The notes under the pieces: model-generated
What the model saw: only the letters and a program-made list of their open reading frames with translations
What the model was told of the DNA's origin: nothing
Databases searched by the model: none
Position numbers and translations under genes: made by a program
IMG/VR virus record: IMGVR_UViG_3300033151_000761
Location: 1-41,812 of that record
Source: a virus
Length of the DNA stretch: 41,812 nucleotides
Reading direction: 5' to 3' (one strand)
In this document: positions 2,546 through 41,238 of the stretch, piece by piece
Numbering within the stretch: position 1 is the first letter of the stretch
How the letters are laid out: every line of letters begins with the position of its first letter

Positions 2546-2616
2546 TTATATAAATTTTTATTTTTAAATTTTTAAAGAGCGGCTTAAATAAAATAATTTA
2601 TTTATTTAATACATCT

Positions 2617-2645
2617 ATTATATAATAAATTTAATAAAAAGTAAA
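2617..2645 (-). promoter_or_regulatory. Promoter in 91-bp unit 1
   Basis: Minus strand: -35 TTTACT at 2640-2645, 17-base spacer, -10 TATAAT at 2617-2622. It points to the small-gene cluster starting at 2477. Sequence just downstream of the -10 (ATAGATGTATTAAATAAATA) resembles that downstream of the promoter near 35953. Confidence 0.6.
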
Positions 2646-2707
2646 CGTTTATTTAATTTATTTTTATAATAAATAATTAAAAAATAATTTATTTATTTAA
2701 TACATCT

Positions 2708-2736
2708 ATTATATAATAAATTTAACAAAAAGTAAA
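2708..2736 (-). promoter_or_regulatory. Promoter in 91-bp unit 2
   Basis: Same arrangement as in unit 1: TTTACT at 2731-2736, 17 bases, TATAAT at 2708-2713. Confidence 0.6.
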
Positions 2737-2798
2737 CGTTTATTTAATTTATTTTTATAATAAATAATTAAAAAATAATTTATTTATTTAATATATAT

Positions 2799-2827
2799 AT
2801 TATATAATAAATTTAACAAAAAGTAAA
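2799..2827 (-). promoter_or_regulatory. Promoter in 91-bp unit 3
   Basis: Same arrangement: TTTACT at 2822-2827, 17 bases, TATAAT at 2799-2804. Sequence just downstream of the -10 differs slightly from units 1 and 2. Confidence 0.55.
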
Positions 2828-2861
2828 CGTTTATTTAATTTATTTTTGCCCTGGTTTAGCT

Positions 2862-3290
2862 AAGCATATTATTATATTATAATATAGCGATATAAAATAT
2901 TAATACAAGCATATTATTATATTATAATATAGCGATATAAAATATTAATATAAGCATATTATTATATTATAATATAGCGATATAAAATATTAATATAAGC
3001 ATATTATTATATTATAATATTATAATATAGCTGTGTACTAATATTATTATATTATAATATAGCTGTGTACTAATATTATTATATTATAATATAGCGATAT
3101 AAAATATTAATATAAGCATATTACTATATTATAATATAGCGATATAAAATATTAATATAAGCATATTACTATATTATAATATAGCGATATAATATAATAA
3201 TATAAGCATATTATTATATTATAATATAGCTGTGTACTAATACAAGCATATTATTATATTACTATATTACTATATCGTAATATCGTAATA
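2862..3290. repeat. AT-rich repeat array, 45-bp unit with palindromes
   Basis: Units starting AAGCATATT occur at 2862, 2907, 2952 and 2997, exactly 45 bases apart, and continue in rearranged form to about 3250. Most contain the 14-bp palindrome TATATTATAATATA followed by GCGATATAAAATATT or by GCTGTGTACTAAT. There is no gene here. Such DNA melts easily; an origin unwinding region or a partition-like site is possible but unproven. Confidence 0.8.
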
Positions 3291-3351
3291 TTGGTGTATT
3301 ATAATATTATAATATTCCCCGCCTCCCCCCCCTATGCACAGTCAGGCCTAA

Positions 3352-25628: not shown

Positions 25629-25888
25629 TCAAACAGCGCTTTAACATCATCCAGGTGGCGAGCTACTATAGCTATGCCACCTGCCTTTGTTATTTCACCA
25701 AGGTGGTGCTCTTGTAGTTTGCTGACAACTCCTGTTTTGGTTTTCCCTTCGATTGCATAGAAGTGCCCATTAATACAAGCAATAATATCTGGCACACCAG
25801 CACGATTGCTAGCAATAGTTTTGAAGACATATCCACCTCTATTAGTTATGTAGTCTTGAATTTTTTTATTTAGTTGTTGCTCAGTCAT
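25625..25888 (-). CDS. VRR-NUC domain nuclease
   Basis: An 87-residue single-domain nuclease of the PD-(D/E)XK superfamily. The catalytic elements are GVPDI (Asp34), then EGK (Glu47, Lys49) and a Gln in helix SKLQEHH. Stand-alone phage VRR-NUC proteins are proposed structure-specific nucleases acting in recombination or replication. It overlaps the ligase gene by 8 bases and is the last gene of the replication operon, meeting the virion operon tail to tail. Confidence 0.88.
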   Translation of the reverse strand: MTEQQLNKKIQDYITNRGGYVFKTIASNRAGVPDIIACINGHFYAIEGKTKTGVVSKLQEHHLGEITKAGGIAIVARHLDDVKALFD

Positions 25889-27137
25889 CTTTATCCCACC
25901 GTATAGCTGCCAACCTAGGTAGAAACAACGACCAGTCTCCAGTTACGGAGTCCTGAATAACAGAGTTATATCTCACCTCTACTACCTTATCTAGGTAGTC
26001 CTTGAATTGTATAGCTCGTTCTAGGTCAGTCAAGCCAGTACCAACTTTAACATTGATAGCTTTACCTTCAACGACACCAACACAAACCAAAGCCCCAACT
26101 TGCCCTTGGTACTTACCTGTACCGTCATCTACGCCTACACACTTTAGGTCTGCAGTCTTGATGGCTTTCAGCTTAACCCAGTCTTTGGACCGCTTAAAGG
26201 TATAGAGGTGGTCCAGGCTCTTCAGGATAACCCCCTCTTGGCCCTCAGCTAGGTAGGACTCAAACAGCTTATTAGCTTCCTCAGGACCTCTGAGCACGGT
26301 ACACTTAGCTAGTTTGAAGTGCTTAGAAGGTAGCTTTCGGACTACCGACCTAGCTAACTCCAGTCTATCAACATAGGTATCACCGCACTTACCAGCATTA
26401 AACTCAGCTAGGGACATGGCATCAAAGATGTTAACCACCAGGCTACTTTCTAAAATACTAGCCTTATGCTGTGCTGAATTAAGCATCCCAGCCACCTTAG
26501 GTCGGTCCTCACAAGTGCCCCCTATCAAGGTAATCTCAGTGTCTAGCATAATCCCAGTAGCAGAGTCGTGCATACCTAGTTGGTACTTACAAGCGTCCAG
26601 GACTTTCCCAGCTAGTAGAGGCAGGTGCAAAGCCTTACCATTTCTAGTTCTAAACAGTACGTCCTCACCATCAAAGGTGATAACAACACGCACACCATCA
26701 TACTTTAGCTGCCCAACAACTGGGTACTTAACTAGGGAAACATGCACCCCCTTAGCTAGTTGAACCTTAAATATATTGATGAGATTAGGCCAAGCTTTAT
26801 TAACAGAAGTGGCAGTAACTCCACACTGCAAGTCTTTATTACAAATCAGCTTAACGAGGTCTCCATAGCCTCTACAATGGTTCTTTACCTTGCTTCTGGC
26901 AGCCATCCCAGTTAGCTCTCTACTAGACAGTAGGGATAGAACATAGGCATCTTCAGGACAGAAAGCCTTAACCTTAGCTAGGTCAATCTCTGCATCAGAA
27001 AACTTAAGCCAATAAGTTTTGTCTTGGCTGTAGGCTGCTTGAAACATCTTTTTATCATACTCATCTAGGTTAGCTAGTACTTCCTGCTTTTCTAGGGTAC
27101 TAGTCGTAGCTCGAAGTGTGTTCAATATAGTGTTCAT
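25881..27137 (-). CDS. ATP-dependent DNA ligase
   Basis: A 418-residue ligase that seals nicks in DNA, using ATP to form an enzyme-AMP intermediate. The nucleophile is Lys145 in QLKYDGVR. Later motifs visible are FRTRNG (motif III region), LDTEI, GQEGVILKS and KLKAIK (motif V). The start at 27137 is supported by GGAGAACAAAA and by ATGA overlap with the preceding gene; an in-frame extension to 27224 would run through that gene. The size fits T4/T7-type phage ligases. It would join Okazaki fragments and repair nicks together with the 5'-3' exonuclease and PolA. Confidence 0.93.
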   Translation of the reverse strand: MNTILNTLRATTSTLEKQEVLANLDEYDKKMFQAAYSQDKTYWLKFSDAEIDLAKVKAFCPEDAYVLSLLSSRELTGMAARSKVKNHCRGYGDLVKLICNKDLQCGVTATSVNKAWPNLINIFKVQLAKGVHVSLVKYPVVGQLKYDGVRVVITFDGEDVLFRTRNGKALHLPLLAGKVLDACKYQLGMHDSATGIMLDTEITLIGGTCEDRPKVAGMLNSAQHKASILESSLVVNIFDAMSLAEFNAGKCGDTYVDRLELARSVVRKLPSKHFKLAKCTVLRGPEEANKLFESYLAEGQEGVILKSLDHLYTFKRSKDWVKLKAIKTADLKCVGVDDGTGKYQGQVGALVCVGVVEGKAINVKVGTGLTDLERAIQFKDYLDKVVEVRYNSVIQDSVTGDWSLFLPRLAAIRWDKDD

Positions 27138-27349
27138 TTTTGTTCTCCATTGTGGATAATAATAATTGGGTGGCTGAGGGCATAACCTAGTATAAAAGGC
27201 CATACAAATGTCAGAGCCCCCCACATAAGAAAACTAGGTTGTAACCCTAGCTGTAGGCGCTTCCCGTAGTCCACACCTAATGTTAACATATACCCACCTA
27301 GCCAGCAGACAACTAGGGATAGGTTTTGTAGCATAAACTCAGTAATCAT
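27134..27349 (-). CDS. Small membrane protein (two TM segments)
   Basis: A 71-residue protein with hydrophobic stretches LSLVVCWLGGYMLTLGV and LMWGALTFVWPFILGYAL separated by a short basic loop (DYGKRLQLGLQ). It overlaps its neighbours on both sides. It could be a holin or another inner-membrane phage protein, but no endolysin gene is adjacent, so the role is open. Confidence 0.7.
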   Translation of the reverse strand: MITEFMLQNLSLVVCWLGGYMLTLGVDYGKRLQLGLQPSFLMWGALTFVWPFILGYALSHPIIIIHNGEQK

Positions 27350-28768: not shown

Positions 28769-29300
28769 TAGCAGCTCCCTGCTTACGAAGCTCAACTAGA
28801 TACAAATATTGCCACATCGCATCATCTAACGCTACATGCGGGGTTAGGGAGATACCTGGCTCAAAGCCAACTAGTGGGGGAGACTCTTCTTTTAGCGTTC
28901 TGAAACATCTATCAAGATAGAAAGGCCAAGGCAGGAGCACCCCTGCTGCTCTATATGCTGAAGCTAAGATTACATTATCGAAGCTGGCTCCGTTCCCCCA
29001 CACCGCAGTTACTTCATACTGTGAGAGTAGCTGACTAAATGCAACTAGGGAGTCAACTAGGTGGGATGCACCGCTTAGGCTCTCCCGCTTAGCTTCTTCT
29101 GACTGTGTTAGCCACCAAAGAATAGTAGCTGCATCAGCCACGCCTGCTTCCATACCACTAGCTAAGGTATTAGACAAGCTAAACTGCTTTACAATACCAT
29201 CAGAATCAAAGAGAACCGCTCCAATAGAAACGATGGCTGCATTAGGTCCAATGCCCATAGTCTCCAGGTCTAACATTACTTCTACTTGTTGCTTGCTCAT
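28761..29300 (-). CDS. DnaQ-like 3'-5' exonuclease (DEDD)
   Basis: A 179-residue RNase H-fold exonuclease. Metal-binding residues: MLDLETMG (Asp11, Glu13), WGNGASFDNVIL (Asp108) and HVALDDA (His155, Asp160). It resembles exodeoxyribonuclease VIII-like/Rv2179c-like phage exonucleases acting on DNA or RNA ends. AGGAG lies before the ATG, which overlaps the preceding exonuclease stop (ATGA). PolA already carries its own proofreading domain, so this enzyme probably acts elsewhere, for example in host DNA or RNA turnover. Confidence 0.87.
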   Translation of the reverse strand: MSKQQVEVMLDLETMGIGPNAAIVSIGAVLFDSDGIVKQFSLSNTLASGMEAGVADAATILWWLTQSEEAKRESLSGASHLVDSLVAFSQLLSQYEVTAVWGNGASFDNVILASAYRAAGVLLPWPFYLDRCFRTLKEESPPLVGFEPGISLTPHVALDDAMWQYLYLVELRKQGAANG

Positions 29301-29812
29301 AGCTCTACTCCTGTAAAGTCCCCTTCAGAGTCGCTAAACCCATCTTCAGACTTATATTCTAGTTCTTTAAAGTGCTCCTCAAAAGGAACAAACGTATCTC
29401 TCAGCATATACAGCAGACGGTGGTTCTCTTCATACAGTCCACCATCTAACAAGCCTAGTTCTTCGTAAACCAAGTAGACCGTATGTGCTGGAGGTAAACC
29501 TAGCTCAGCACCTTCTGCCAAGATTAGTCTTGCTTTTACATCTCCCACACGGAAGATACCTTGGATATTATCGCCAGCATCGCCAACTAACATCTGGTAT
29601 GCGAGAAGCCACTGTGCGTCTAACTGAGAGGTATGTCTCGCTTCTTTATTTACAAAGTTGAAATGCCAGCCCGCTGACTGGAAATTATCCTTGTCAATCC
29701 CGATCAGCACACTTGAGCCCTGATACTTCTGGTGACAGTTGACAGCATAGTCATCAGCTTCCATGTTCTCAGAAATTAGACAACCAAACTGAAGAATAGC
29801 CCACTCAAACAA
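29297..29812 (-). pseudogene. 5'-3' exonuclease (T7 gp6-like/FEN), C-terminal fragment
   Basis: The readable frame extends upstream to 29887 and would give RREVAVTKPYKGQRAQEKP before this ORF; 29812 is only a TTG. The fragment holds the metal-binding ENMEADDYAV and the helix-hairpin-helix region VGDAGDNIQGIFRVGDVKA of 5'-3' exonucleases, which remove RNA primers and degrade DNA. The N-terminal part lies in another frame at 29872-30078. About ten residues expected between the two parts are missing. The junction fits a deletion between two copies of TCCGTCGTG. It is either truly inactivated or a sequence/assembly error. Confidence 0.8.
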
Positions 29813-29871
29813 AGCTAGGTAATGAAGAGGCTTTTCTTGGGCCCGTTGGCCTTTATAAGGCTTAGTTACGG

Positions 29872-30078
29872 CTACCTCACGACGGATTCAGTAGGGTTTA
29901 CAATGTTAGTCTGCACAAAGTCAACTAACGCTTTGCATGCACTTGGGAAGCCTCCTTCGTCGTCCTCAAATACCGCACTACATCTATAAATTGCACTATC
30001 AAAATCCACAATGCCTAGGTACAACTTAGGTAAGGCTTGAGGGGCTGCATCTTTAGGGTGAACCATTTGTTCTGCCAT
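29872..30078 (-). pseudogene. 5'-3' exonuclease, N-terminal fragment
   Basis: Sixty-eight codons ending at a TAG. It contains the first metal-binding Asp in YLGIVDFDSAIYRCSA and the helix CKALVDFVQTNIVNPT, as in 5'-3' exonucleases. The continuation (RREVAVTKPYKG and onward) lies in a different frame of the same strand from 29887 down. The ATG at 30078 has GGAGAAAG upstream and a promoter near 30104, so the original gene started here and covered 30078 to 29297. Confidence 0.8.
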
Positions 30079-30242: not shown

Positions 30243-31430
30243 CTAGTTCTGGTCTAACTCCAGGAGAAAAGCCACGTTTGTCATGAGATGAGCTAGGTGG
30301 GGTAGGCCACTGTCAGAATCATTTTGCTCTCCCCCTCGCCACGCTTCTAAGTGACGGAATGCAGCGGCAATATATCTATCCTGGTCACCTCCTCGCCAGT
30401 TGTTAGGCGCATACTTCTTAGCTCCATACGTCAGAACTTCTGCTAGTGCTTTGGTTGAACTAGTTGGGATAAGGTCATAACGTAACTTATCAGTATCAAA
30501 CTTCATAAAGTCAGTCACCTCTACAGTCTCAGTTATCCCAACTAAGGAGATGTACTTTGCACAAGTTTCGCAAGGCTGATGAGTACAGTAGATGACACTA
30601 GGCACTTCATTAGGAAAGCTAGCTTTGAACCTGTCTATAGCGGCAACCTCAGCATGTACCACCTCAGCTAGGGTTTTCCCCTCAGAGTCCTCACACGTAT
30701 GAGAAAAAGGATTATAGTTGGAAGCTTCAGAAAAGTGAGTCCCTTCTGCGTTGGACACAACAGCTCCAACCTTGCGTTTCTTGGCTGTGCTTTGCTTTGC
30801 TGTTGCCAATGCTAGCTTCTTAAAGCCGTCTGGAGCTAGTCTTACCCTTAGTTGAGTGGCTTCTTTTGGAGGTTCTTCTGTTGTGGAGAGCTCTTCTGTT
30901 GCCGTAGGCCATCCAAAAGACTTAAGTAACGCAGAGATGTCTACTTCCGGTCCTACGTAGTTTGGGCCCTTTCCCTCAGAGCTGTACTTCTCTCCTTTTG
31001 GGATATGCTTTTGGGACTTAGTACGGTTGCTAGTAAGAATGATGCTAAGTAGTGACACTGCACCATCAACACTATCCAGTAGTTCAACTAGGTCAGAGAA
31101 AGCATCTTGACCTAGGGTTATAAGGCCTACAAAGTTATCACTAGAGATAAGTAAAGCGGTAGGGCTGCCTCTTACTACTTTGAATACCTCGTCTGTTCTA
31201 ACATCCTGTAGTTCTAAGATACCAAGCACTAAGAAAAGTATATCCCCTAGGGCATCAACACTTTCAGCTAGGCATGTAGCATTAGCCAGTTCTTGTTGCT
31301 CAGAAGCTAGGAAACCATATAGATCTGTGTGGTCAATATTTTTGATTCCTCTTACCCCGTACCATTCAAGAATGTTTTGGCTAATGCCCCTTAGCTGAGC
31401 GCTTTGGTCTTTCGTTAAATTTCTGTTCAT
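30243..31430 (-). CDS. Fusion: MazG-like - dCMP deaminase - dATP/dGTP diphosphohydrolase-like
   Basis: A 395-residue three-part nucleotide enzyme. Residues about 1-130 are helical with a MazG-type metal site (Glu44, Glu47, Glu56, Asp59, then GDI). Residues about 195-305 are a cytidine/deoxycytidylate deaminase: His259-Ala-Glu261 and Pro286-Cys287-x-x-Cys290 for zinc. Residues about 308-395 match the DUF5664-type dATP/dGTP diphosphohydrolase (KFDTDKLRYDLIP, YGAKKYAPNNWRGG, FRHLEAWRGGE, SGLPHLAHL). It could hydrolyse dNTPs to dNMPs and convert dCMP to dUMP. It overlaps the DHFR-like gene (ATGA) in a run with the ThyA-like gene. Three such activities in one chain are unusual. Confidence 0.82.
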   Translation of the reverse strand: MNRNLTKDQSAQLRGISQNILEWYGVRGIKNIDHTDLYGFLASEQQELANATCLAESVDALGDILFLVLGILELQDVRTDEVFKVVRGSPTALLISSDNFVGLITLGQDAFSDLVELLDSVDGAVSLLSIILTSNRTKSQKHIPKGEKYSSEGKGPNYVGPEVDISALLKSFGWPTATEELSTTEEPPKEATQLRVRLAPDGFKKLALATAKQSTAKKRKVGAVVSNAEGTHFSEASNYNPFSHTCEDSEGKTLAEVVHAEVAAIDRFKASFPNEVPSVIYCTHQPCETCAKYISLVGITETVEVTDFMKFDTDKLRYDLIPTSSTKALAEVLTYGAKKYAPNNWRGGDQDRYIAAAFRHLEAWRGGEQNDSDSGLPHLAHLMTNVAFLLELDQN

Positions 31431-31816
31431 CTTACTCTCTCATAAATAGTTAACTCGGAGCCGCCCGCAAGCAGCTCATAAGCATCAAAAAAAGACATAT
31501 CGAAGGACTTCCCATGAAGTACCTCTTTATCTGTACGTACTACATACATAATGTCTGGTGGGTTAGTTCTAAAGGTACTAATACCTAGGTTTACATCCCA
31601 GTCGTCTGTAGGGTCGGTAGTCCACCCACTGACTATACCTAGCATAGAAGGAGGTAAACCACAAAACGTATTAACTGAACACAGTATCTTCTTGCCTTTA
31701 ACTAGGTGCAGAAGAAAACCTTTGTCCCAACTAGGTCGAGCTGGTAAACTTCCATCTTCTCTGAGATAGAAGTTATCAGCTGACAGTAAGACAATACCAG
31801 CTGTCTGTTTACTCAT
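31427..31816 (-). CDS. DHFR-like protein
   Basis: A 129-residue protein. Although short (typical DHFR about 160), it shows the DHFR order: an N-terminal strand (GIVLLSADNF), LPARPSWDKGFLLHLVKGKKILCSVNTF, which aligns with the bacterial LPxxLPxDxxxFK...VxMGxxT region with Asp31 at the catalytic acid position, and a C-terminal AGGSELT like the GGxxxY cofactor motif. If active it would regenerate tetrahydrofolate after a thymidylate-synthase-type methylation. It lies between the ThyA-like and deaminase genes and overlaps both (ATGA). The match is by eye, and several usual residues are not obvious, so an inactive or divergent function remains possible. Confidence 0.55.
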   Translation of the reverse strand: MSKQTAGIVLLSADNFYLREDGSLPARPSWDKGFLLHLVKGKKILCSVNTFCGLPPSMLGIVSGWTTDPTDDWDVNLGISTFRTNPPDIMYVVRTDKEVLHGKSFDMSFFDAYELLAGGSELTIYERVR

Positions 31817-32619
31817 GGGATTAGCTCAAACTTAATTGGTTCAGCAGGACTGTAATTAGTAATCTCAAGCATGCTAGGCTCGAAGTTAAAGACAGTTGCA
31901 TCTTCACCTAGTTCCCAACTAGCTGGAACGACATCCGTAAACAGCTCAATTGGTTGACCTAGGTACTCCTCGACCTGAGGTAGGTGAGTTTGATAGACAT
32001 GGCAGTCACCTAGGTGAAATGTTAGTGTACCAGGTTTTAACCCTACAGTCTGAGCCATTAACATGTTAAATACCGCAGCTAATAGCATATCAGAAGGCAG
32101 CCCAACCATTAGGTCAACAGAGCGCTGTACCCAAATCATATCTAAGGTACCTTCTGTTGTGACATACCACTGGTAAGAATAATGGCAGCATGGTAGAGCT
32201 AGCTCAGCTAGTCTATCGGGACGCCAGGCTGAGATAATATGGCGTCGCCCCTTAGGGTTTTCCATTAGACTCTTAACTACTTCAGACAGCTGGTCAACCC
32301 CATTGAAGTCTCTCCAACTAGTTCCATAGTCAATATTTAGTTTACCTGTATCATCAGCCCAGCTATCCCAGTAGTTACAGCCATTAGCTTTAAATACATC
32401 AACCGACGTAGCCCCTTGTAAGAATGAAGCTAGTTCACCAACTATGCCTTTATGGTATATCTTACGCCCAGTAATAAGGGGCAAAGAACCAAATTCCATA
32501 ATATCCGTTTTAAGCATCTCACCAAAGTAACCTCTAGTAACTGCATTGCGGGTTTGTCTGTCTCTACAAGACAGCGCCTTTTTAATAATCTTTCTATAGT
32601 CTTCTTCAAATTGTGGCAT
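31813..32619 (-). CDS. ThyA-fold enzyme with Asp177: predicted dCMP hydroxymethylase/methylase
   Basis: A 268-residue member of the thymidylate synthase family. Visible: Glu62 in GELASFLQG, Trp84 in NYWDSWAD, the paired Arg in GRRHIIS, the nucleophile Cys145 in LPCCH, QRSVD (Gln165-Asp169) and the nucleotide loop HLGDCHVY. The residue matching E. coli Asn177, which selects dUMP, is Asp177 (GLPSD). In T4 gp42 and in engineered synthases, Asp here favours dCMP. The enzyme is therefore likely to add a one-carbon group to C5 of dCMP, giving hydroxymethyl- or methyl-dCMP for incorporation into phage DNA. It follows PolA by a TAAGATG junction and overlaps the DHFR-like gene. Plain thymidylate synthase is the alternative. 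Confidence 0.85.
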   Translation of the reverse strand: MPQFEEDYRKIIKKALSCRDRQTRNAVTRGYFGEMLKTDIMEFGSLPLITGRKIYHKGIVGELASFLQGATSVDVFKANGCNYWDSWADDTGKLNIDYGTSWRDFNGVDQLSEVVKSLMENPKGRRHIISAWRPDRLAELALPCCHYSYQWYVTTEGTLDMIWVQRSVDLMVGLPSDMLLAAVFNMLMAQTVGLKPGTLTFHLGDCHVYQTHLPQVEEYLGQPIELFTDVVPASWELGEDATVFNFEPSMLEITNYSPAEPIKFELIP

Positions 32620-32620
32620 C

Positions 32621-33061
32621 TTAAACCTCTACTGTGTAAAGGGGAAGTTCTGAACCATCTTCAAGGTCTCCCCAGTTGGACCCTACTACTACTTTAACAG
32701 GCATCGGCAAATCAGGTATTGCCAGGTGCTGTGTAACCTCTTGCCACGCAGACTGCATAGACTCAGCTAGGATATTAGCTGTAGGCTTATAGCTATCTGG
32801 GTCCGCAAGACACTCAAAAGTAAAACTATCGTGGATGAAGTTAACCTGTACTACTCCCTCAATGCCTCGCTCTTTGAGGGCTTTGTTAGTTCTGTGCATA
32901 GCTAGCTTAGCTACGTCGGCAGAGCCCCCTTGCACCGGTAGATTACAAGCATCAGTGTACAACTTAGGCTTGAACCGTCGACCTAATACCGTACGAGATG
33001 TTTCGCCGTCTCTCCAACCCCTAGTTGTGTCCTCCTGCCAACGAGTCAAAGCCGGGTACAT
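32621..33061 (-). pseudogene. DNA polymerase A, C-terminal fragment
   Basis: A 146-codon frame with the polymerase end: YPALTRW, LGRRFKPKLY, the VQGGSADVAKLAM helix, and motif C VNFIHDSF (His-Asp; the usual following Glu is Ser here). No Shine-Dalgarno precedes the ATG at 33061, so independent translation is doubtful. In this frame the homology can be read back to LWHHMYPAL. About 22 residues expected between motif B and this point are absent. See the N-terminal fragment. Confidence 0.85.
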
Positions 33062-34241
33062 GTGGTGCCACAGCGTAGGTGAGATTGAAATTCAAGGTTT
33101 TTGCTACCTGACGGGTTGAGTCCATAGTGTCCGCAGTAAACTGGTGAACATCAGCACCTGATCTAAACTGGTCTTCCATAGCCGTCTCGTTAGTTAAGGC
33201 ACAAACATATCTTAGTTCAAGAGCAGAGAAATCAGCGTACACAAATACTTTACCTTCTTCAGCCTGAAACAACCCTTTAGTCTTACGTGGTAACTGCTGA
33301 AGATTCATGTCTTTACAGTTACCTCGCCCTGACCTAGTGGTAAAGCTAAACTTCCCATAAAGCCGTCCGTCTTCTGACTCAGCTTCAAACTTGTTAAGAA
33401 AACTAAGTAGCTTTAAAAGCTTTCTAGCTTCTTGTACGTCACGGGCTCTGTCATTACCATTAAGGGCGAAGGTGGACAGAGCTAGTCCATCTGACTCGTT
33501 TTCACCAATGTAAGGCCGTACTTGCTGCCAACTATTCACATTAATAGGCACAGCTAGTTCCTCAACTCTAGCCTCACAATCAGCCCTTAGCTCATCCAGG
33601 CGGTCCTGGCTGTATGGAAAGCCGTTTACTTGCATGTCCCACGCCCAGCCAGTTGCTACCTTATCCAGCCGATAACTAGGGTCATTGTGATGCACATTGC
33701 AAGCATCATACAGCTCAAGTAGATAGAAAACGTCTGTGGCTGCATACTGCTCTTGCTCTAACGTCAACACACCTGACCAGTCTGACTTCTGAAGGGCTTT
33801 CTTGTCCAGACCTAGGTTGATATAGGGGTCCTCACCTAATGCATACTGATAGCACAAGTCCAGTGAAAAGAACTCTTGTGTGTAGTATTTCAGCTTAGAA
33901 AGAAGAAGTGTGTCTTCCCACTTAGGTGGGTTGAATCGGAACGCCTTTTGGTCTAGCACTTGACCTAATTGGGCTTGCATAGTACTAACTTCATAGCTAG
34001 TGTTATGACAAACAAGTTGAAGGGGTTTGAGGAGTTTGAGGAAAGCACTTAGCTCTAAAATATCAGGATTAGAAACAATAATAGCTTCGTCCCAGTGACT
34101 TTGGTAGAACTGAGCTAACACCACACGCCCGTAGAAACCAACTGTCTCCACGTCAAACGCTACAGGCTTAGTCTTGTCTAGCATGCCTACCATAGACATT
34201 ATGGAGGTTTTCTTGTACTTTAATTGTCTTAATTTACTCAT
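33021..34241 (-). pseudogene. polA: DNA polymerase A, N-terminal fragment (3'-5' exonuclease, palm/fingers)
   Basis: A family A replicative polymerase. Proofreading exonuclease motifs: FDVETVG (Asp30, Glu32), CHNTSYE and YAATDVFYLL. Polymerase motif A is YADFSALELRYV, and motif B is RQVAKTLNFNLTYA near residue 380. The frame then runs out into AVAPHVPGFD and stops at 33021, while the rest of the enzyme continues in another frame at 33061-32621. Both frames read through the same GCTGTGGCACC, which would be the scar of a deletion between two direct copies. No slippery heptamer followed by a structure is evident, and sequence is missing, so programmed frameshifting alone does not explain it. Confidence 0.88.
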
Positions 34242-40551: not shown

Positions 40552-41238
40552 CTACTTACGACGACCAGTTTTTTTGGTAGCAGGCTTACCAGCAGCCTCA
40601 CCAGCAGCCTCACCAGCAGCCTCACCAGCAGCCTCACCAGCAGGCTTACCAGTAGCGGGCTCACCAGCAGCCTCAAGTACTTCACCAGTAGCCTCAAGTA
40701 CTTCACCAGTAGCCTCACCAGTAGCCTCAAGTACTTCACCAGCAGCAGCTAGGTGGGTGTGTAGCTCTTCTAGTGTCTCGAAGCCAAGAGTTGTGGCCTG
40801 GATGGCTGCCTTCGCTTTCTGGATAGCTTCGCGTGCTGCTGCAATAGCTGCAGGTTTAACCTTACCAGTCTCAACATCAGTTAATAGTTGAGTCATTGCG
40901 GTCTTAGCAACAGCTTGTTGACTCGTCCAGTGACCAACACCTTCTTTACACATGGTGTTTAGCTTAGTTGCTGAGCTAGCTTTCTTACCAAACTCGACAG
41001 CTTCGGAGCCAACTAGTGGCATGAAACGTTTGAAGTAGTAGCATCTAATGGCAACAACTTCACCCTCAGCATTACGAATAACAGTTGAAGTTGAGCCACC
41101 ACTTGTTGCCCCACGCTGTTTTGGTACTGCGAAAGTTTCTAGCTCAGCAAATACATCACTGATGGTCTTGTCAGCATTGGCAGCAAGAAACGCCATTATG
41201 GCAACGAATGGTTTTTTGTAACTAGTGGGAGTGTTCAT
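40552..41238 (-). CDS. Paralogue of the 1176-1625 product with Ala/Gly/Glu repeat tail
   Basis: A 228-residue protein. Residues about 10-125 align with the 149-residue protein at 1176-1625 (GEVVAIRCYY, GKKASSATKLNTMCKEG, HWTSQQ). The C-terminal 60 residues are low complexity: repeats of GEVLEAT and GEAA units from 12- to 30-base DNA repeats at about 40575-40745, ending in the basic TKKTGRRK. Such a tail resembles linker-histone-like or unstructured nucleic-acid binding tails and is prone to length change. AAGGTG lies before the ATG. It has its own promoter (41298) and terminator (40492), so it is a single-gene transcript beside the putative origin. Function unknown; strong early expression is plausible. 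Confidence 0.82.
   Translation of the reverse strand: MNTPTSYKKPFVAIMAFLAANADKTISDVFAELETFAVPKQRGATSGGSTSTVIRNAEGEVVAIRCYYFKRFMPLVGSEAVEFGKKASSATKLNTMCKEGVGHWTSQQAVAKTAMTQLLTDVETGKVKPAAIAAAREAIQKAKAAIQATTLGFETLEELHTHLAAAGEVLEATGEATGEVLEATGEVLEAAGEPATGKPAGEAAGEAAGEAAGEAAGKPATKKTGRRK

Follow-up and report, generated by a model that had tools for sequence, protein, structure and literature searches.

A phage ThyA-family enzyme with aspartate at the pyrimidine-selecting position, predicted to be a dCMP C5-methylase

Introduction

Canonical thymidylate synthases (TS), which are specific for dUMP, have asparagine at position 177 (E. coli numbering), and in T4 gp42 and MilA an aspartate at the equivalent position selects cytosine (PMC5175136). 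The viral record IMGVR_UViG_3300033151_000761 was analysed over positions 1 to 41,812 (the window, 41,812 nucleotides), and it contains a ThyA-family gene with aspartate at this position. The original prediction was that the phage carries a modified cytosine. The locus raises the questions of which pyrimidine this enzyme uses, which group it adds, and whether its product enters phage DNA. Phages with 5-methylcytosine replacing all cytosine are known essentially from XP12. If our reading is true, dozens of distinct 40-kb podophages, some of them cultured, whose enzymes are annotated simply as 'thymidylate synthase' would make modified cytosine, and one residue together with the neighbouring genes would predict which phages do so.

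Results

A TS-like active site with aspartate at position 177

The gene occupies 31813–32619 of the minus strand, exactly as first located, with its ATG at 32619 and its stop at 31813. Its features are listed below.

31813–32619, minus strand: ThyA-family enzyme of 268 residues, predicted dCMP C5-methylase (PF00303, TS fold, residue table)
32329–32331, minus strand: Asp97, adjoining catalytic Tyr98 (E. coli Val93-Tyr94), a clade hallmark (Asp in 77/77, including Asn177 members)
32194–32196, minus strand: Leu142, three residues before the catalytic Cys (E. coli Leu143), Asp145 in T4-type hydroxymethylases (alignment; signature from PMC6400193)
32185–32187, minus strand: catalytic cysteine, Cys145 (E. 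coli Cys146), with Cys144 before it in the motif LPCCH (alignment; Cys in 77/77 at E. coli 145 and 146)
32089–32091, minus strand: Asp177 codon GAT, the pyrimidine-selecting residue (alignment to E. coli ThyA and T4 gp42)

The encoded protein matches PF00303 at 1e-64. Structure prediction yields a TS fold with a pLDDT of 93.9, and all 50 PDB matches listed are thymidylate synthases, with TM of about 0.9. When the protein is aligned with E. coli ThyA and T4 gp42, the base-selecting loop reads QRSVDLMVGLPSD, and Asp177 shares a column with E. coli Asn177 and T4 Asp179. The original prediction was therefore correct in placing Asp at the dUMP-selecting position and in noting Asp at the aligned place of T4 dCMP hydroxymethylase. 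It had also described the other catalytic residues (Cys145, the Arg pair and the Glu) as intact, and the alignment agrees, with every one of these residues (E. coli numbering) retained: Glu58, Trp80, Tyr94, Arg126, Arg127, Cys146, His147, Arg166, Ser167, Asp169, His207 and Tyr209. With the fold, the catalytic Cys, the Arg set, Glu58, Asp169, His207 and Tyr209 present, we file the protein, by its sequence, in the PF00303 superfamily. Asp in place of Asn177 sets it apart from canonical dUMP-specific enzymes, and we file it neither as a T4-type hydroxymethylase (see below) nor formally as an XP12-type methylase.

Asp177 in a deep clade of phage enzymes

Relatives found in IMG/VR scans share 40–60% identity with the window enzyme, and cultured relatives are present in GenBank (Pseudoalteromonas PH1, Edwardsiella KF-1, Vibrio VPMS1, and Dickeya Amaethon). 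In a tree built by a quick method with column 177 excluded, these proteins form a clade with SH-aLRT support of 99, which is nested inside the thymidylate synthases. The branch that splits T4-type hydroxymethylases from the clade is long, at about 6 changes per site, and the window enzyme does not group with gp42. Residues common to the 77 distinct proteins of the clade are, in E. coli numbering, Asp93, the CC motif of 145–146, and those of a remodelled pocket containing Tyr79, Arg48, and Ser/Ala176. Asp177 is present in 74 of the 77 and is thus not a chance occurrence; the other three (L197, L204, and L205) have Asn177. As these three are separate tips amid Asp177 relatives, residue 177 has switched at least three times.

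The Kafunavirus-like podophages KF-1, VPMS1, PH1, and Amaethon belong to the same clade, combine LPCCH with Asp177, and have syntenic replication genes. Their ThyA proteins, annotated as thymidylate synthase, are only 38–44% identical to that of the window. Unlike the window, they have no DHFR-like gene beside TS, and their MazG and deaminase are unfused. The Asp177 ThyA family is large and mostly unstudied, and the window enzyme is one further member.

We also noted a second, separate Asp177 lineage with GLPYD and LPPCH motifs, which is common among marine viral contigs (L019–L066); of its 38 distinct proteins, nearly all fall outside the clade of the window enzyme. In another contig, a single 567-residue ORF (L193:4089-5792) fuses a 5'-3' exonuclease-like domain to an Asp177 TS. 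Five contigs of the window's phage clade (L262, L263, L264, L265, and L269, about 26–44 kb) lie in MAGs labelled with several bacterial phyla; these are probably binned phages, so the phylum labels are not reliable hosts.

Genes overlapping the TS gene

Two ORFs follow the TS gene on the same strand.

31427–31816, minus strand: DHFR-like protein ('mini-DHFR') of 129 residues, overlapping the TS stop as ATGA (profile match, Foldseek, homologues)
30243–31430, minus strand: 395-residue fusion of a MazG-like pyrophosphatase (PF01503), a dCMP deaminase (PF00383), and a DUF5664 dATP/dGTP diphosphohydrolase (PF18909) (domain matches, motifs)

The TS gene had been described as lying in an overlapping run with the fusion. 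The run is real, with 4-base overlaps between the TS stop and the start of the 129-residue ORF and between this ORF and the fusion, but it is the DHFR-like ORF, missed at the time, that adjoins TS, and the fusion comes after it.

The 129-residue ORF alone has no Pfam or PHROG match, and its likeness to DHFR is seen only via homologues and profiles. A profile from homologues at or near TS in other contigs aligns in register with DHFR over residues 5–55 (hhalign E 5.5e-6, probability 86%), and the DHFR N-terminal region, with the LP motif, the active-site Asp, and the Thr after the second strand, is found in 31427–31816. The L092 copy matches PF00186 at 2e-4 in a single-genome search and at 0.003 in a Pfam scan, and the L242 copy matches the PHROG DHFR family at 1.2e-5. 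An AlphaFold model of the ORF from three sequences is of low confidence (pLDDT 59, TM 0.27), and all 50 of the listed Foldseek matches are DHFR. These weak, remote matches suggest that the ORF encodes either a divergent DHFR of reduced length or a protein derived from DHFR. Family members have about 113–140 residues, versus about 160 for a complete DHFR fold with its NADPH site, and the family is possibly a minimal DHFR. Such very short DHFR-like proteins were seen near both Asp177 and Asn177 TS genes (the window, L075, L092, L193, L199, L205, L242, and L260), and a canonical DHFR is found instead in two Asp177 contigs (L218 and L227) and one Asn177 contig (L197).

In the translation of the fusion, the deaminase HAE and PCxxC motifs are intact, and ExxE and ExxD motifs are present. 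In relatives, MazG is a separate ORF ahead of a deaminase-DUF5664 protein. The MazG relative in VPMS1 was assigned to a DR2231-like family, which may act on dUTP, and this counts against the reading preferred below.

Preference for dCMP

Published work bears on the meaning of Asp177. According to the account given in PMC8670742 of Liu and Santi 1992 and Hardy and Nalivaika 1992, Asn-to-Asp mutants of TS shift their preference from dUMP to dCMP and produce 5-methyl-dCMP. The window enzyme, like these mutants as described there (N229D in L. casei TS and N177D in E. coli TS), has Asp in an otherwise TS-like site; the mutants were engineered, whereas the phages of the window's clade carry the Asp naturally, as a fixed feature.

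A further line is MetaGPA, in which environmental phage DNA was selected by modified cytosine, with 5mC and 5hmC both protected using TET2 and T4-BGT (PMC8670742). Position 177 was among the top two discriminating PF00303 residues, with Asp in modified and Asn in unmodified contigs, and the other residue was 147 (PMC8670742), at which the window's clade keeps His. The domains associated with modification were PF01068 and PF14743 (ligase) and PF00383 (deaminase), and PF01503 (PRA-PH) and PF14437 co-occurred (PMC8670742). The window carries all five together with the Asp177 TS, including the following gene.

25881–27224, minus strand: ATP-dependent DNA ligase (PF01068, PF14743), domains associated by MetaGPA with modified-cytosine contigs

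PF14743 is present in 28 of 31 clade contigs of about 39–47 kb. The window thus resembles the MetaGPA contigs in having an Asp177 TS homologue with PRA-PH, deaminase, and ligase domains on the same class of phage contig, an association by domain content and not by the MetaGPA contigs themselves. Some MetaGPA contigs have a carbamoyltransferase, unlike the 31 records of the window's clade.

The prediction that the enzyme prefers dCMP and that cytosine is modified has good support by inference: Asp177 is kept throughout a deep clade, it is accompanied by linked genes for deaminase, pyrophosphatase, and kinase, and the MetaGPA association points the same way. We consider it very probable that the window enzyme prefers dCMP, and likely that the modified nucleotide is incorporated into phage DNA. 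The original prediction, which allowed either hydroxymethyl- or methylcytosine, is in this respect partly supported; its comparison with gp42 was misleading with regard to the product.

Methyl or hydroxymethyl

T4-type enzymes activate water through Asp145, which stands three positions ahead of the catalytic Cys and acts together with Ser94 and Tyr96, and their site is opened by Val85 and a short tail (PMC6400193). Over 80 T4-type sequences, Ser94, Asp145, and Thr149 are invariant, and residue 85 is Val in 76. The window enzyme shares with T4 gp42 the TS superfamily, the Asp base selector (T4 Asp179), and the Glu60/Cys148 catalysis (T4 numbers). In contrast to gp42, it has no Asp145, Ser94, Val85, Thr149, or short tail, and it belongs to a separate clade. 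At the position of Asp145, where T4-type enzymes have Asp/Glu, it has Leu; two residues before the Tyr equivalent to Tyr96, where they have Ser/Thr, it has Ile, with Asp one before; and it has Trp (Trp87) at the position of E. coli Trp83, His at 147, and a full-length tail. A T4-like hydroxymethylase identity was therefore rejected as the main reading and kept as a rival.

That rival takes the enzyme to be a dCMP hydroxymethylase with a non-T4 water-activating residue, Asp97 standing in for T4 Asp145/Ser94, and the phage DNA to contain 5-hydroxymethylcytosine. Besides Asp177 as in gp42, it draws on an Asp that never varies within the clade, at E. coli position 93 and next to the catalytic Tyr; by the structural alignment of PMC6400193 this position is equivalent to the water ligand Ser94 of T4. 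It also draws on the altered C-terminal tail, in which Phe260, Glu261, and Lys263 are typical of the clade; changes in the tail and folate pocket of the window enzyme are I79Y, F176S, and A263K. Asp97 beside Tyr98, together with these changes, could admit water. Moreover, some relatives have a dNMP kinase, as T4 needs for hmdCMP. However, Asp93 is also present in the Asn177 members and is thus not tied to base choice, and the residues at Cys-3, 83, and 147 and the full-length tail are as in TS. We regard this reading as unlikely.

The main positive argument for methylation is the DHFR-type genes beside the only ThyA. A DHFR would be useful only if dihydrofolate is made, which methylation does and hydroxymethylation does not do, and the phage DHFR would have no other phage ThyA to serve, since each of the 31 clade contigs (about 39–47 kb) has exactly one PF00303 protein. 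This argument is indirect: of the 64 Asp177 contigs with sufficient flank, just 9 (the window included) have a DHFR-type gene close to TS, as do 2 of 3 Asn177 contigs; in the other 55 Asp177 contigs a host enzyme could serve.

Further modification of hmC was considered and rejected: in the window record and 30 relatives, no match was found to family 2 glycosyltransferase (PF00535), PF16861 carbamoyltransferase, or TET (PF12851), the TET search being without a positive control. The PF00535 result accords with the original remark that no glucosyltransferase was recognised, and it counts, with that for carbamoyltransferase, against the hydroxymethylase reading. These observations suggest that the product is probably methyl rather than hydroxymethyl, and we caution that not every Asp177 enzyme should be named a hydroxymethylase.

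The predicted reaction, dCMP to 5-methyl-dCMP with methylene-THF, is that of the XP12 dCMP methyltransferase (MT664984), and the purpose would also be the same, genome-wide 5mC. The XP12 genome is 63.8 kb (PMC7653180), compared with about 39–47 kb for the clade contigs; the likeness proposed here is one of reaction and purpose. XP12 primer sequences had no match in the viral contigs.

Deaminase, kinase, and the fate of the product

A deaminase is near TS in 47 of 64 Asp177 contigs and in 0 of 3 Asn177 contigs (Fisher p 0.024, which ignores relatedness). It is present in the nearest Asp177 relatives with enough flank of each Asn177 member (L225, L219, and L187/L192). A dNMP kinase lies at or close downstream of TS in five distinct Asp177 podophage contigs (L196, L225, L201, L249, and L250), and none is near TS in the three Asn177 contigs. 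The L196 kinase (L196:5801-6322) matches the PHROG dNMP kinase family (PHROG 139 type) at 9e-13. T4 phosphorylates hydroxymethyl-dCMP with such a kinase. The kinases beside Asp177 TS therefore suggest that the Asp177 enzymes make a non-standard nucleotide, destined for DNA.

These distributions bear on the reading that the enzyme is an ordinary dUMP thymidylate synthase in which Asp177 is tolerated through the remodelled pocket. Its active site is indeed TS-like, the grouping of DHFR and dCMP deaminase with it in an operon is reminiscent of the ordinary route to dTMP, and three clade members have Asn177. Nevertheless, these three are isolated tips against 74 Asp177 proteins, and none of the three has a deaminase nearby, which is opposite to the pattern expected from a shared dUMP pathway. 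In addition, dNMP kinases accompany Asp177 only, and MetaGPA and the published mutants, as reported in PMC8670742, tie Asp177 to dCMP. Such a plain synthase seems to us quite unlikely.

Very unlikely is a cytosine-first thymidylate route, in which dCMP is methylated, the neighbouring deaminase converts 5-methyl-dCMP to dTMP, and the DNA is unmodified: it would fit the linkage of deaminase to Asp177, the lack of a match to a kinase for the modified nucleotide in a DNMK search of the window, and the finding of no second ThyA in the clade contigs and no ThyX in the window, but no deaminase is seen nearby in 17 of 64 Asp177 contigs (VPMS1 included), the dNMP kinases of some relatives imply phosphorylation of the modified nucleotide itself, and MetaGPA found the modified cytosine in DNA itself (PMC8670742). 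Equally improbable is its extension to the whole clade, which would make thymidylate in reverse order, with the residue at 177, Asp or Asn, deciding whether a lineage takes the cytosine-first or the classical uracil-first route.

Proposed pathway

Our preferred reading is that of a dCMP C5-methylase of TS fold that feeds 5-methylcytosine into phage DNA by a reaction as in XP12, and taken as a whole we give it about an even chance. In this scheme, the residues, the clade, and the gene neighbours are observed, and we infer the substrate, the product, the incorporation, and the protection. Cys145 would add to C6 of dCMP, and Asp177 would pair with and protonate the N3/N4 edge of cytosine, so that dCMP would be chosen over dUMP. 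Methylene-THF would supply the one-carbon unit and, since the TS-type site and the full-length tail are kept, presumably the hydride as well. The products would be 5-methyl-dCMP and dihydrofolate, the latter recycled by the overlapping DHFR-like protein. The MazG/DUF5664 domains may act as dNTP hydrolases, plausibly converting dCTP to dCMP, which the deaminase would share with the thymine pool. A kinase would then yield 5-methyl-dCTP, a phage dNMP kinase in some relatives and host CMP kinase for the window phage. This conversion to the triphosphate is the weakest link and would need the host, because the window has no recognised kinase. Finally, the phage polymerase would incorporate 5-methyl-dCTP, which may shield the genome from restriction. 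Because residue 177 has switched naturally three times between Asp and Asn, and because genes for deaminase, DHFR, and dNMP kinase are linked to it, this clade opens substrate choice, the transfer of hydride or water, and the routing of dCMP to direct tests.

Digests and base composition

VPMS1 DNA was cut with HhaI in one paper, which reports bands of 7–10 kb for the phage compared with VPMS1, and also bands shared among three phages (PMC4870561). In the VPMS1 sequence there are 148 HhaI sites, and none of the predicted fragments exceeds 1.8 kb. Set against the reported bands, these predicted fragments decide nothing without the gel, and the digest was set aside. A literature search found no restriction digests of KF-1, ETP-1, PH1, or Amaethon. 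CpG depletion (0.53) was also set aside as evidence, as relatives range from 0.51 to 0.92.

Other features of the record

Upstream of the TS gene lies the polymerase.

32621–34241, minus strand: family A DNA polymerase in two ORFs (frameshift, lost residues; comparison with relatives)

Compared with relatives, the polymerase lacks about 30 residues after the NFN..Y motif and its frame is shifted, from either an assembly error or real damage. A frameshift also divides the 5'-3' exonuclease (29297–30078, minus strand), which lacks about 20 residues compared with L003. That one record should have two small losses of this kind suggests faults in the assembly. Two proteins of one uncharacterised PHROG (10459) are encoded near the two ends of the record (1176–1625 and 40552–41238, both minus strand). 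Long, AT-rich tandem repeat arrays with periods of 45–47 and 91 occupy 2588–3316, adjoining the terminase end of the late genes.
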